This document shows positions 1 to 61,192 of a stretch of DNA of 64,000 nucleotides, piece by piece. The notes below the pieces were generated by a model. That model ran no database searches, was not told where the DNA came from, and saw nothing but the letters and a program-made list of their open reading frames with translations. The position numbers were made by a program, and so were the translations under genes. Origin of the DNA: Fusobacterium sp. (GTDB taxonomy: Bacteria; Cyanobacteriota; Vampirovibrionia; Gastranaerophilales; Gastranaerophilaceae); contig JAMPIJ010000002.1 of assembly GCA_023662905.1 (NCBI GenBank), positions 1 through 64,000 of the forward strand, read 5' to 3'. Position 1 is the first letter of the stretch; each line of letters starts with the position of its first letter.

Positions 1-68
1 GCCATAGTAAAGGCACCTAAGAGAGGCCCCCCCCCCCCTGTGCAAGGTAATACATTTCGTTTGTTCAT
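1..68 (-). CDS. Prepilin-like protein, copy 1 (5' end only; G-tract ON)
   Basis: This is the 5' end of a type IV prepilin-like gene that runs leftward out of the window. I chose the ATG at 68..66 because AAAGGA lies 8 nt upstream; the other ATG at 77 overlaps that ribosome site. The 22 visible codons encode a short leader, four Gly from twelve G, then PLLGA followed by FTM, which matches the FTMAEILL start of mature pilin in the four complete copies. The residue before the cleavage-site Phe is Ala, not the usual Gly. Twelve G keeps the ATG in frame with the pilin, so this copy reads as ON. The identity of the missing part is inferred from the paralogues. Confidence 0.75.
   Translation of the reverse strand, partial: MNKRNVLPCTGGGGPLLGAFTM
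27..38 (-). repeat. Homopolymer tract, 12 G (prepilin copy 1)
   Basis: Twelve consecutive C on the plus strand read as G12 in the leader of prepilin copy 1. The tract starts at a codon boundary, so twelve is the in-frame length. Tracts of this length are prone to slipped-strand change in bacteria. Confidence 0.9.
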
Positions 69-20628: not shown

Positions 20629-20658
20629 AGACCTGTCAAGAACAGGTCTTTTCTTTTA
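20629..20658 (+). terminator. Terminator after sdaAA
   Basis: AGACCTGT / ACAGGTCT stem with a 5-nt loop followed by TTTTCTTTT. The 20533-20655 gap holds nothing else recognisable. Confidence 0.8.
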
Positions 20659-21430
20659 TAATAAATTCATCATCCTTAATTTTGCAATTCTTTCACTGAA
20701 AATAGCAGTCAAATCAACAGGTAACCCTAAAAATACTCTATTGTCTTCAGAAAGATTTTTTACAAGATTTTTCACCGAACCAATTCGTTTATTGGTCATA
20801 TTTTGTTCATTTTTGTGAAACATATGCGAAAGCGACGGAGGTGTCTGAGGCTCCTTAGGATTAAGCAGATAATTCAGCGACACCGCCAGATCTGTTCTGT
20901 GAAGTCCTAATAAGCAAGCCATATAGACCCTACCTCTTTCCATAAGTTTGAAAAACTTATCCAAATCTTTCACAAAAACCTCACGGTTTGCTCGAAATTC
21001 CTCAAACGATTCCTTTGAAGTGCCGCGGGGATTAAACATTGACATATTCTCTTTTATTTTAAAGTTGAAATACTCAAGCCCGTTAGCCTCACACTTTCTA
21101 GCGTATTTAGATTCACTGCTTCCCTCTATTCTAAAATCTATAACAGTTTCAATCCCCGACTCTCTGAGTTCATCAAAAACCTGTTTAGGCTTATTAAACA
21201 AACTTTGCCCTCTGACTGAACTGGAATCAACCAGACGAAAATTCTTAATACCTAATTGTTTCATTCTTACAATATCAATAGCGTCCGAATGCCGGATAAA
21301 GGAGTCCCCCCCCCCCGTGCGAAACAGGACGAACGGAAGTTAAGGGGTCTGAAATTTGCCCGCCCTGCTGCGGATTATTTATATTATTCGATTTAAAGGC
21401 CAAAGCTGGCAAAATTTTATTTACAAACAT
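20656..21430 (-). CDS. Tyrosine-phosphatase-like protein with G-tract near its 5' end (frame OFF in this sequence)
   Basis: The body (from the ATG at 21264, 202 aa) looks like a cysteine phosphatase of the DSP/PTP superfamily: RGQSLF near residue 19, GIETVIDFR near 35 and a P-loop-like ACLLGLHRT near 116 that fits CX5R. The frame stays open upstream of that ATG, through a run of 11 G, to codons with no good start. From the ATG at 21430 a different frame runs for about 40 codons into the tract and then stops soon after it. With 10 or 13 G the two parts would join into one protein of about 257 aa. Neither ATG has a clear ribosome site, so the true start is uncertain. Function and target are unknown. 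Confidence 0.6.
21306..21316 (-). repeat. Homopolymer tract, 11 G (phosphatase-like gene)
   Basis: Eleven C on the plus strand. Reading from the ATG at 21430, 11 G leads to an early TGA. Ten or 13 G would join the phosphatase frame. Confidence 0.85.
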
Positions 21431-34567: not shown

Positions 34568-35565
34568 TTAGCGTCTAACACATCTGACGCGTCCATTACC
34601 GCCTGTACATCCAAGAAGCCATTGACCGGAGCTTAACCGTAAACACCACGCGGTATCTGATGTTGGCTGTATAGGTGCAGACCAAAAATCGCCAACATAA
34701 GTTTCAGAGTCATAATTAAATGTTACCAAATCGCGGTTATAAAATAATGATGCGAGTTCTTCTCTATTCGGCAAACGACTGTCAGAATCAATTGTCGTAC
34801 ATTTTTTGTTAATATTCATAGACATACGAACATCAGAATCTGACGCTGTATCAGCAGTTGTGGCAACAGGTGCCACTAATACGCTATCAGAAGCATATAG
34901 AGCCGTCATTATGCCCATATCTTTACCAAAAGTATTCGGCCCCTTAGAACCGTTCAAGTCATAAACAAAATTCGCACACATTTTTGGCTGCGACCAAAAG
35001 TCTGCACTTTCGTTAAGGTTAGAAGTACAATTCGGGTTATAATAAACCGCAATACTTTCGCCGTTGATAGTTTCAAACGCCGCGGCCTTTGTGTCAAACA
35101 TTACTGAATTACTTGTCATCAAAGGGTTTAACTCACTCATTGTTTTCGGGAACGACCTTGTAGTCCCGTTTAAAAGCGTAATTTTACTCGCCAAGCCACA
35201 ATCAGTCAGGTGATCGCCGTCACAAATATTGTTAATTTTCAAAACTTTTGCAAGCCCGCCGGTGACAAAAGTTTCAGCGGCAGTGTCGACAGCGGAAGCG
35301 GAATCAGTTGCTTCTGTCGTTGTTCCATAACCGTTCAGCGCCGGCATCAGAGCAATTGCCTGTGAAAATCTTGAATAAAGCGCTTTTCGTTGAGTGTTCC
35401 AAGTTCGTTCGTTAATGTTGCCTGTTAGCGACGGCAACGTAATCGCGGCGACAACGCCGATAATTGTGAGGGATAAAAGTATTTCGGCCATTGTGAAGCC
35501 GCGGCTTATGGCCTGCTCAGCAGTCCCCCCCCCCCTGTCCCTGTTAATACAGTTTTGTTGTTCAT
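34568..35565 (-). CDS. Prepilin-like protein, copy 2 (G-tract 11, OFF)
   Basis: A class III-type prepilin with a large C-terminal domain. From the ATG at 35565 (AAAGGA 8 nt upstream) the frame enters 11 G and hits TAA after 19 codons. The pilin frame itself is open for over 300 codons: leader end ISRG, cleavage before FTMAEILLSLTIIGVVAA, then a conserved MCANFVYDLNGSKGPNTFGKD region, and a C-terminal part (SRLPNREELASLFYN, DFWSAP, RVRCVRR) that resembles Lcl_C/DUF1566 lectin-like domains. Adding one G restores the frame. Neighbours are the lytic transglycosylase (convergent) and pth. The mature protein would sit in the inner membrane or in a pilus. Confidence 0.85.
35525..35535 (-). repeat. 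Homopolymer tract, 11 G (prepilin copy 2)
   Basis: Eleven C on the plus strand. Twelve would be in frame, so this copy is one G short. Confidence 0.9.
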
Positions 35566-40881: not shown

Positions 40882-41946
40882 TCAGCGTTTTATACAGCGG
40901 ACATTCAACTTATCACCTCGAGAATACCGAATTTTTCTGCCCGAACCAAGCCCCACAGCATAAGCCGTATTAGCCGATGCCAACGTTGATGACCAAACTC
41001 CGGCCGCAGAATGAAAGTCAAACAAATCCTGATTAATGAATAATACTATCAATTCTTCAATATTCGGCATTCTTGTATCACTATCATACTTTGTACAATA
41101 AGCAGGAGCATTTCTATGTTCTATAAGTTCTTCCGCATTGCGAATAACTGGTACAGGAGCAACGACAACTGTATCTGTCGGATACATAGCACTTATGACA
41201 CCAATATCCTTTCCTACAGTATTAGGCCCCTTATTGCCATTTAAATCATATACAAAGTTTGCACAAATATAGGGCTGGGTAAGCCACCACACATCAGAAC
41301 CGCTCTCTTGATTTAGCGACATAATACAATTAGGATTGTAGAATACTAAAACTGATTCGCCATTCGCCGTTTCAAAAGCGGCAGCTTTGGTATCAAGAGC
41401 GGCATAAGAATATGACAAACTAGTATCTACAGCGTAAGTAAAATACTGATTCAACGTACCAAAAGTATTTGGCATTGACATACTGTTTCCGGCTAAGGTT
41501 GTAATATCAGGTGAAAGTCCGCAATCTTTCAGGTGGTCTGAGTCGCAAATATTGTTAATTTTTAGAACTTTTGCAAGCCCATCCGTGATAAAAGTTTCAG
41601 CGGCGGTATCCTCGGTTACGGACTGAGAACCATCTTCCCCAAATGTTCCTGTAAGTTTTCCGTAACCGTTAAGCGCAGGCATAAGAGAAATCGCCTGTGA
41701 AAACCGCGCATAAAGAGCTTTTCTTTGCGTGTTCCACGTCCGCTCGTTAATGTTGCCAGTTAGCGACGGCAGTGTAATAGCGGCAACTACGCCGATAATT
41801 GTTAATGACAATAAGATTTCTGCCATTGTAAATGCACGGGACTTCGTCCACGCGCTCGGGTTGCAATGGGTGGCTCCCGACTCAGTCGGGCGGCTCAGCA
41901 GGCTCCCCCCCCCCCCTGTCCATGTTAATACAGTTTTGTTGTTCAT
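40882..41946 (-). CDS. Prepilin-like protein, copy 3 (G-tract 12, ON)
   Basis: Full-length in-frame prepilin of 354 aa from the ATG at 41946 (AAAGGA 8 nt upstream). The leader is unusually long, about 34 residues: MNNKTVLTWT, four Gly from the tract, then a Ser/Arg/Thr-rich insert ending in KSRA. Cleavage would fall before FTMAEILLSLTIIGVVAA, so the -1 residue is Ala instead of Gly. The mature part holds PYICANFVYDLNGNKGPNTVGKD and a C-terminal lectin-like region (TRMPNIEELIVLF, WSSTLAS, LNVRCIKR). Its promoter is back-to-back with that of lptC. It is flanked by dnaE downstream. Confidence 0.9.
   Translation of the reverse strand: MNNKTVLTWTGGGGSLLSRPTESGATHCNPSAWTKSRAFTMAEILLSLTIIGVVAAITLPSLTGNINERTWNTQRKALYARFSQAISLMPALNGYGKLTGTFGEDGSQSVTEDTAAETFITDGLAKVLKINNICDSDHLKDCGLSPDITTLAGNSMSMPNTFGTLNQYFTYAVDTSLSYSYAALDTKAAAFETANGESVLVFYNPNCIMSLNQESGSDVWWLTQPYICANFVYDLNGNKGPNTVGKDIGVISAMYPTDTVVVAPVPVIRNAEELIEHRNAPAYCTKYDSDTRMPNIEELIVLFINQDLFDFHSAAGVWSSTLASANTAYAVGLGSGRKIRYSRGDKLNVRCIKR
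41905..41916 (-). repeat. Homopolymer tract, 12 G (prepilin copy 3)
   Basis: Twelve C on the plus strand. The tract encodes four Gly in the leader and keeps the pilin in frame. Confidence 0.9.
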
Positions 41947-50662: not shown

Positions 50663-50686
50663 AAAGCGCCCACTGGGCGCTTTATT
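50663..50686. terminator. Terminator typA / prepilin copy 4
   Basis: AAAGCGCCCA / TGGGCGCTTT hairpin between the two convergent genes. Confidence 0.8.
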
Positions 50687-51675
50687 AGTTGCGTTTTACA
50701 CAAATAACATATCGAGATTTGTCTTTAGCCGTTGGATATTTTATACCTCCATAATATCCAAAGACCCAAGCAGTATCTTTATCTATATTAGTTGATGACC
50801 ACGTAAATCCACCATCCCAATCAAATAATTGTCGATTGTAATACATAGATAACAACTCTTCAATATTAGGCATTCTCGATTCAGAGTCATTGTCTTTGCA
50901 TAATTTACTAGCCTCAGCATATTTCTTGGATTGATTCATAATTTTAGGTTGGAGAGGCATGACAACTACAGAATCCGATGAATAAATTATTGACATTATA
51001 CCAATATCTTTACCAACAGTATTTGGGCCTTTAGAGCCATTCAGGTCAAAAACCATATTTGCACAAACCTGTTGCTTAACATAATTCCCCTGATTTCCTT
51101 CAACATCTTGCCCTTGATAAAGAACATCGGGAGCAGTACAGTTTGGGTTATAGAATGTTAAAATAGATTCGCCGTTCGCAGTCTCAAACGCTGCAGGATT
51201 CGCAACAATCATATTCAACGATGTAGCCTTTTCTAGTAATCCAGAATTCAAATCTGATAACGTCATTGGTAAATCACTTGTGTTGCCACCTAACGTTGTT
51301 ATTTTACTTGCCATACCGCAATCCCAAACATGTTCAGTATCACAGATATTGTTAATTTTTAGAACTTTGGAAAGTCCTGATGTAATAAAGGTTTCGGCAA
51401 CATTATCTACAGCGGAACTGCTTGCGGTTGCAGCAGCAAAAGTTCCATAACCATTCAATGCCGGCATTAGCGCAATTGCTTGCGACATGCGAGCGTATAA
51501 GGCTTTTCGCTGAGTGTTCCAAGTTCGCTCGTTAATGTTACCTGTTAGTGACGGCAGCGTTATCGCTGCAACGACGCCGATAATTGTTAGCGAGAGCAAT
51601 ATCTCTGCCATTGTAAAGCCGGTTAAGGAACTCCCCCCCCCCCCCTGCAAAAATGTTCATAAGTTTGTTTTTCAT
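50685..51675 (-). CDS. Prepilin-like protein, copy 4 (G-tract 13, OFF)
   Basis: From the ATG at 51675 (AGGA 7 nt upstream) the frame reads MKNKLMNIFA, enters 13 G and ends at TAA after 45 codons. The pilin frame is open for over 300 codons: SSLTG, cleavage before FTMAEILLSLTIIGVVAA, then QVCANMVFDLNGSKGPNTVGKD and a C-terminal part with SRMPNIEELLSMYYN, FTWSST and YVICVKRN. One G fewer (12) would join both parts. A TTG just before the tract is in the pilin frame but has no ribosome site, so I do not accept it as start. Its promoter starts at the base after the prs terminator hairpin. Confidence 0.85.
51633..51645 (-). repeat. Homopolymer tract, 13 G (prepilin copy 4)
   Basis: Thirteen C on the plus strand, one more than the in-frame length of 12. 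Confidence 0.9.
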
Positions 51676-51700
51676 TTGTTCATCCTTTCTTTCTACGTTC

Positions 51701-51729
51701 ATTATGTAGCATGTTTATTAATAAGTCAA
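51701..51729 (-). promoter_or_regulatory. Promoter of prepilin copy 4
   Basis: TTGACT (51729..51724), 17 nt with AAACATG at spacer positions 8-14, CATAAT (51706..51701). Confidence 0.82.
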
Positions 51730-60149: not shown

Positions 60150-60178
60150 AAAAGGAGCCTTACGGCTCCTTTTTTTTA
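60148..60178. terminator. Bidirectional terminator, hydrolase / prepilin copy 5
   Basis: AAAGGAGCC / GGCTCCTTT stem with A-runs and T-runs on the two sides. Confidence 0.88.
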
Positions 60179-61192
60179 TCGTTTTACACACCTTACGGAA
60201 TTACCGTGGGTTTTATTTTGAGCAAAAGCATACAAGCCGGTATAAACTACACTCCAATTTAAGGTTGAAGAAACGGTCGAAGATGTCCAATAATGGTTAT
60301 CTGTAGCTGAAAAAGCCGCGAGTCTTTTATTGTAAAAGACTGACATTAATTCTTCAATATTCGGTAACCTCATTTCTGAATCAAAATTACGACATTCTTT
60401 ATTACCACTAGAAACATTATGCATCCCTGAAACATCACGAATTGCAGGATACGGCGCAACAACATGTGAATCTGTAGAATAAAACGCCGTCATAAACCCG
60501 ATATCTTTTCCGACAGTATTCGGCCCTTTGCTTCCGTTCAAATCAAACACAAAATTGACGCACATCATAGGTAAAATTTTATATGTTCCTTCGCCTAATA
60601 ACTGGTTACTACCGCAAGACGGATTATAATACACTAGAATACTTTCACCATTTGCAGTTTCAAACGCTGCAGCCTTTGTGTTAAAAACGGGATAACTAGA
60701 CAACTCTGTACCATCATTATTCGTAAGCGGACAAAAATCATCTAATTCTTCAATATCACTTAAATTAATCGGCCCACCATTAAGTGTTCCGCCATCCATC
60801 GGAGTAATTTTTTCGGGAAGCCCGCAGTCAGTTAAACTCCCCGCCGCGCAGATATTGTTAATTTTCAGAACTTTAGAAAGTCCATTAGTAATAAAAGTTT
60901 CTGCCGCAGTATCGACCGCTGACGCAGAAGATGTCGCATCAGTCGTGGTTCCATAGCCATTCAATGCCGGCATAAGAGAAATTGCCTGCGACATACGAGC
61001 ATATAAGGCTTTTCGCTGCGTGTTCCAAGTTCGCTCGTTAATGTTTCCAGTGAGCGACGGAAGCGTTATCGCCGCAACAACACCGATAATTGTTAATGAT
61101 AATAAAATTTCTGCCATCGTGAATCCGGCAGACAGGCGGCTAAGAAAACTCCCCCCCCCCCCTGCAAAAATGTTCATAAGTTTGTTTTTCAT
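60176..61192 (-). CDS. Prepilin-like protein, copy 5 (G-tract 12, ON)
   Basis: Full-length in-frame prepilin, 338 aa, from the ATG at 61192 with AAAGGA 8 nt upstream. The leader reads MKNKLMNIFA, four Gly from the tract, then SFLSRLSAG. Cleavage is predicted before FTMAEILLSLTIIGVVAA, with Gly at -1 and Glu at +5. The mature part carries paired Cys (NNICAAGSLTDCGL), MMCVNFVFDLNGSKGPNTVGKD and a C-terminal lectin-like region (MRLPNIEELMSVFYN, NHYWTSSTVSS, NSVRCVKR). The protein would be inserted in the inner membrane and assembled into, or at the tip of, a type IV-like pilus. Its -35 box lies within the hairpin that ends the PAP2-like gene. Confidence 0.92.
   Translation of the reverse strand: MKNKLMNIFAGGGGSFLSRLSAGFTMAEILLSLTIIGVVAAITLPSLTGNINERTWNTQRKALYARMSQAISLMPALNGYGTTTDATSSASAVDTAAETFITNGLSKVLKINNICAAGSLTDCGLPEKITPMDGGTLNGGPINLSDIEELDDFCPLTNNDGTELSSYPVFNTKAAAFETANGESILVYYNPSCGSNQLLGEGTYKILPMMCVNFVFDLNGSKGPNTVGKDIGFMTAFYSTDSHVVAPYPAIRDVSGMHNVSSGNKECRNFDSEMRLPNIEELMSVFYNKRLAAFSATDNHYWTSSTVSSTLNWSVVYTGLYAFAQNKTHGNSVRCVKR
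61151..61162 (-). repeat. Homopolymer tract, 12 G (prepilin copy 5)
   Basis: Twelve C on the plus strand, encoding four Gly in the leader; the in-frame length. Confidence 0.9.

Follow-up and report, generated by a model that had tools for sequence, protein, structure and literature searches.

The locus described here raises the question of whether a prepilin gene that is out of frame by one G in a long G run is switched off, misread or dead. The gene is the fourth of five similar copies (copy 4) in the window, the whole stretch of 64,000 nucleotides that was analysed. It begins at an ATG (51675, minus strand) preceded by a Shine-Dalgarno sequence (AAAGGATG), and a run of 13 G lies downstream of this ATG, at 51633-51645. 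With 13 G, the length given by the assembly consensus, the ATG frame stops after 45 codons and the 45-residue product begins MKNKLMNIFAGGGGEFLNRLYNG. Our frame check at 12 G gives a 329-residue prepilin (MKNKLMNIFAGGGGSSLTG, followed after the predicted cleavage site by FTMAEILLSLTIIGVVAAITLPSL...), and at 14 G only 17 residues. An earlier note had claimed that 13 G end the ATG frame after 45 codons and that 12 G would join an intact pilin; both claims were confirmed, the restored protein being a type IV pilin with 310 mature residues. Copy 4 is recorded OFF in the assembly consensus, by a 5' coding repeat that moves the frame as in SSR phase variation. Its features, all on the minus strand, are as follows.

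51701..51729, minus: sigma-70-like promoter, TTGACT-17-CATAAT, upstream of copy 4 (read directly)
51681..51690, minus: Shine-Dalgarno region, AGAAAGGATG (read directly)
51646..51675, minus: ATG start at 51675 with the leader's first half, MKNKLMNIFA
51648..51650, minus: TTG in the pilin frame at 13 G, lacking a Shine-Dalgarno sequence, judged probably incidental
51633..51645, minus: 13-G tract in the prepilin leader, the putative phase switch (sequence and frames)
51618..51632, minus: remaining half of the leader, reading SSLTG in the pilin frame, up to the predicted prepilin-peptidase site between G and F (class III signal peptide rule, PMC9934059)
50688..51617, minus: mature pilin of 310 residues, followed by its stop codon (50685-50687)
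50688..50982, minus: predicted C-type-lectin/Lcl-like C-terminal module, residues ~213-310 (profile and fold matches)

Across the whole window there are six G runs of 11-13, in every case on the minus strand, and no further G run of seven or more was found there. Matches to G9 number 23, compared with a mean of 0.01 in shuffles of the window. Five of the six runs lie in pilin leaders, namely that of copy 4 and the following.

1..68, minus: copy 1, cut by the start of the window and contig; 12 G at 27-38, in frame (ON)
34568..35565, minus: copy 2; 11 G at 35525-35535, OFF from the Shine-Dalgarno-preceded ATG 35565
40882..41946, minus: copy 3; 12 G at 41905-41916, ON
60176..61192, minus: copy 5; 12 G at 61151-61162, ON

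At 11 G, an ATG within the promoter of copy 2 opens a frame of 347 codons. The picture in the earlier note, of an OFF prepilin with tracts on both sides of 12 (11 G in copy 2, 13 in copy 4), agrees with the lengths of 9-16 that we found genome-wide. The sixth run, at 21306, is in another gene. This non-pilin gene (~20656-21430, minus strand) has 11 G at 21306-21316 and a frame from ATG 21430 that ends at 51 amino acids; with 10 G the frame would reach 257 amino acids, with a weak tyrosine-phosphatase-like match.

The protein encoded by copy 4 at 12 G carries the hallmarks of a type IV prepilin, SSLTG/FTMAEILLSL, with Gly at -1, a hydrophobic first segment and Glu at +5. The class III signal peptide rule calls for a short hydrophilic leader up to Gly or Ala, and then a hydrophobic segment (PMC9934059). 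F1 and E5 are invariant in 54 sequences. The N_methyl profile was matched at E 0.06 by copy 4 and at E 9e-4 by copy 5, both below the curated cut-off. A structure model of copy 4 built from the alignment of 54 sequences (pLDDT 91, pTM 0.86) has a 48-residue helix at the N-terminus (3-50), together with a beta-rich head and a module at the C-terminus. Pfam Lcl_C (PF07603) matches copy 4 with E 6e-5 and matches 38 of the 54 family members at E below 0.01; the copy 4 score of 23.7 bits is under the curated cut-off of 34.9, and the module is therefore named Lcl-like rather than Lcl. Among the fold-search matches listed, which are those for the lectin domain, the C-terminal domain of Legionella Lcl (8q4e; Z 12.8, 107 residues, rmsd 4.1) and the tip, or C-terminal, domain of Bdellovibrio Bd2740 (8oks; Z 12.9, 96 residues, rmsd 2.8) rank above a long list of C-type lectins. 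Copy 4 is predicted to encode a pilin of modular build, tipped with a C-type-lectin/Lcl-like module. The genome also encodes a prepilin peptidase, assembly ATPases and platform proteins (PF01478, PF00437 and PF00482, all over cut-off).

This genome, a fragmented 1.74-Mb MAG of the Gastranaerophilales (Melainabacteria), belongs to a gut bacterium that is a distant relation of cyanobacteria, and it contains 112 poly-G runs of at least nine. The base before the run is A in 86 cases and C in 26. Like the run at 21306, many other C-preceded tracts stand before long non-pilin frames. The genome has ~105-114 paralogous pilins (~114 close matches to the pilin N-terminus, some of them halves at contig ends), and from the stretches around tracts and pilins we recovered 103 full-length mature ORFs of 292-338 residues. 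Median identity among these 103 is 95% over the first 60 residues and only 42% beyond about position 130. A leader tract lies upstream in 66 of 106 recovered pilins; about ten have a short tract-free leader, e.g. MKKA/FTMAEIL, and contig ends or scaffold gaps interrupt most of the remainder. Two main leader types place the tract 30 nt (27-33) or 48-50 nt from the ATG, and TTGAC is found upstream in 61 of the 75 family genes with enough upstream sequence. Since the tract precedes the peptidase cleavage site, 3-G changes or insertions do not alter the mature pilin. Palindromic repeats such as CCGGCTGAGCCGG are lodged between the poly-G and the cleavage site of several leaders (L043, L053, L114, L065 and L077, and G002/G003 loci L327, L348, L334 and L353), an arrangement that would fit a cleaved leader tolerant of insertions.

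We rejected the idea that the copies arose by recent duplication or by duplication in the assembly: four-fold sites are 39% identical (median) and no pair exceeds 95%. Contig ends were likewise set aside as evidence of tract heterogeneity. Of 108 ends, 67 fall near pilin 5' ends or tracts, yet many share exactly 55 bases with another copy, which points to repeated assembly k-mers. The longest exact stretch shared within the family is 86 bp. Copy 4 (L218) and a paralogue on contig C22 at ~67 kb (L099) have an exact stretch of 83 bp in common amid diverged DNA, which suggests local gene conversion.

In six of the seven genomes of the genus there are ~92-122 family members and 55-91 tracts preceded by A, and, among 99 genomes, N-terminal matches with E below 1e-20 were confined to the genus. 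The seventh (G005, locus L372) has seven family members and no A-preceded tract, and its prs gene is followed by a small pilin-like gene of another kind. This genome could serve to date either the expansion of the family or a loss. Copy 4 lies directly after prs, and a poly-G leader occupies this place in five of six congeners, with 13 G in G006, G001 and G002, 16 G in G003 and an 11-NN-run in G004. A pilin follows the leader in G006, G001, G004 and G002, and the G003 contig ends there. The three congener loci with 13 G are out of frame, as is copy 4. C-termini at this locus differ from species to species, and no congener gene was accepted as a strict orthologue of copy 4, the best C-terminal identity being 59%; for this reason the tract lengths at the copy-4 locus, 11-16 G, are locus-level comparisons. 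One clean orthologous pair of leaders, at another locus in G003 and G002, has 14 and 13 G with a single SNP in ~270 bp, so that tract length varies there amid conserved flanks. In the nearest named record, TypA is 97% identical and a family pilin lies at the same place beside typA, where the contig ends at the leader. At 79 loci in related genomes, 21 of 39 other type IV pilins of different sequence have a G9+ run, mostly of 10 G, within 200 bp upstream, and the principle is therefore wider than the family of copy 4. One related genome also holds three tandem genes (L209:4857, 6060 and 7253) in which a 12-G run precedes a similar frame (xxELVYMTYYRAIAI...), a candidate for a separate phase-variable family.

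We consider it highly probable that copy 4 is a modular type IV prepilin gene switched by slipped-strand changes in the G run of its leader. With 12 (or 15) G the full prepilin would be translated, the prepilin peptidase would remove the leader together with its Gly run, and we infer that the mature pilin would be incorporated into a type IV filament, exposing a lectin-like and perhaps adhesive module. With 11, 13 or 14 G, translation would stop early. At least 66 paralogues have a tract, leader and start signals of their own, so that reversible switching within one population could give a clonal population many combinations of pilus subunits.

The broken frame at the annotated start would also be expected of a decaying pseudogene frozen by its frameshift. 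We find this very improbable, since the remaining ORF is intact and its N-terminus agrees with the family consensus, while four-fold sites agree only ~40% with other copies in a comparison that included one near-identical paralogue. Moreover, none of the 120 matched stretches in the genome contains an internal stop codon. Among the 57 pilin genes whose frame could be called, which required an identifiable start, 23 are ON and 34 OFF, all states being those of the assembly consensus. Their tracts measure 9 (1), 10 (6), 11 (18), 12 (22), 13 (8), 15 (1) and 16 (1) G. Selection for ON was rejected, as 23 of 57 is no different from one third (p = 0.26), and the ratio is what unselected frame drift would give. 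N-terminal identity is 95% for OFF copies and 93% for ON copies, and four-fold sites agree only 39% in both. Because conservation is as high in OFF as in ON copies despite their diverged synonymous sites, OFF fits a reversible state rather than decay; the main argument is that protein sequence, which dead genes would lose, has been kept at a large synonymous distance. A gene that is OFF in this sense may instead be leaky, if low levels of pilin arise at 13 G from the TTG or through slippage of polymerase or ribosome on the G run. That long runs can cause slippage is generally known. As the earlier note said, a TTG just upstream of the tract (at 51650) shares the pilin frame when the tract has 13 G, and the ORF from it (50685-51650, 321 aa) is open to the pilin stop. 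The note's further suggestion of a low-level start fared less well. The TTG has no Shine-Dalgarno sequence, its leader lacks Lys or any basic residue, and its frame is the rarest for start codons (9, compared with 16 and 33 in the remaining frames) among leaders with 30 nt between ATG and tract. For these reasons the TTG is probably incidental, a chance start, and we give little credence to a leaky copy 4. Copy 5 (tract at 61151) has an identical leader with the same TTG, out of frame. Chance starts such as this TTG and the promoter ATG of copy 2 could lead gene callers to annotate an intact gene and so hide the OFF state.

Two further readings bear on the tract itself. The thirteenth G may be a consensus error, so that copy 4 truly has 12 G and is ON, in a gene that would still be phase-variable. 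Long G runs are prone to error in sequencing and PCR, 12 is the commonest tract length, and the genome is a fragmented MAG. However, lengths of 9-16 are seen throughout this genome, and 13 G recur at the same locus in three separately assembled genomes, although a bias shared by these assemblies is possible. We judge an error unlikely. Alternatively, the tracts may mainly silence, with OFF copies serving as a store that recombines into expressed copies, as pilS does into pilE in Neisseria. Exact stretches of up to 86 bp common to diverged paralogues, among them the 83 bp of copy 4, speak for such a store, as do the C-termini that differ among species at the same locus. However, the copies are equipped with a leader, start signals and a full-length ORF of their own, most with a promoter-like TTGAC, and are not cut short at the 5' end as pilS is. 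A store as the principal role of the OFF copies therefore seems to us quite improbable, though recombination of this kind could operate alongside the switching that we favour.

One tract-free member of the copy-4 family appears to vary by a different route. The sole reverse transcriptase that we found (C22:112.7-113.4 kb, outside the window) is encoded together with Avd (PF22296) and a template repeat (TR) beside this pilin. The retroelement and its target are located as follows.

L365:1210-3130 and L268 (C22 ~112.4-116.0 kb in G000): diversity-generating retroelement and target pilin, the pilin at C22 ~115 kb

The variable repeat (VR) equals the template repeat in the G000 assembly. Of ten core TR-VR differences in G002, nine fall on adenines of the template, and the core of the variable repeat in G003 departs from the G002 template at adenines only. 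On the sequence evidence, here and in congeners, this paralogue is the target of a diversity-generating retroelement. Copy 4 was rejected as a target, no match to the TR being present in the window. The ~100-copy scale of the family, the lectin-like tip, the conservation of the locus within the genus and the link to a retroelement were all absent from the earlier reading.

The retroelement target within the pilin family links two systems of diversification. On balance we favour, with some reserve, the view that an uncultured gut genus of Gastranaerophilales devotes ~5% of its genome to ~100 independently switched lectin-tipped type IV pilins and one tract-free member hypermutated by a retroelement. 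These would form a dual-mode, combinatorial system of surface recognition and one of the largest phase-variable sets known for a single gene family. A switch located in a leader that is later removed is economical, since the mature pilin is untouched when the tract changes in frame or repeats are inserted. The pil genes listed in previous work on Melainabacteria are all of the ordinary kind (PMC5877343). In the literature covered, which excluded preprints and most subscription papers, we found no report of phase-variable pilins in Melainabacteria, nor of this scale, lineage or dual diversification. According to a review of phase variation, genomes with many phase-variable loci are seemingly restricted to pathogens, and the review asks whether this reflects sampling bias (PMC11868660). 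The genus of copy 4 belongs to a gut lineage in which no pathogens are known, and it is a strong candidate for a counter-example.

Several known systems share parts of this arrangement. The Opa proteins of Neisseria are multicopy surface adhesins subject to slippage of a repeat in the leader-peptide sequence (PMC3960869, PMC5953494), and they resemble the present family in that each gene is switched by a repeat in its leader. However, Opa proteins are beta-barrels with CTCTT repeats and up to ~12 copies, whereas here the products are type IV pilins, the repeat is poly-G and the copies number ~100. Neisseria PilC1/PilC2 and pilS copies with repeat tracts (PMC5953494) also have poly-G within the coding sequence of a type IV pilus gene, but PilC is a pilus-associated protein with one or two copies and no pilin family. 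The average number of poly-G tracts in a Neisseria genome is 15-19 (PMC5953494), so that the 112 tracts of at least nine G found here are about six times that average, although the cut-offs may differ. In Streptococcus sanguinis PilC (PMC9934059), a lectin module is likewise grafted on a pilin module; judging from the matches listed, its lectin belongs to another fold family, and the pilin is single-copy and not phase-variable. Legionella Lcl (8q4e) and Bdellovibrio Bd2740 (8oks) share the fold of the C-terminal module, but carry it on other stalks and are only 16-23% identical. Finally, known retroelements with C-type-lectin targets (PMC8144416) have a reverse transcriptase, Avd, TR, VR and adenine-specific differences, as does the element beside the one pilin paralogue. 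In contrast to those systems, the target here is a type IV pilin, from a family otherwise diversified by phase variation.
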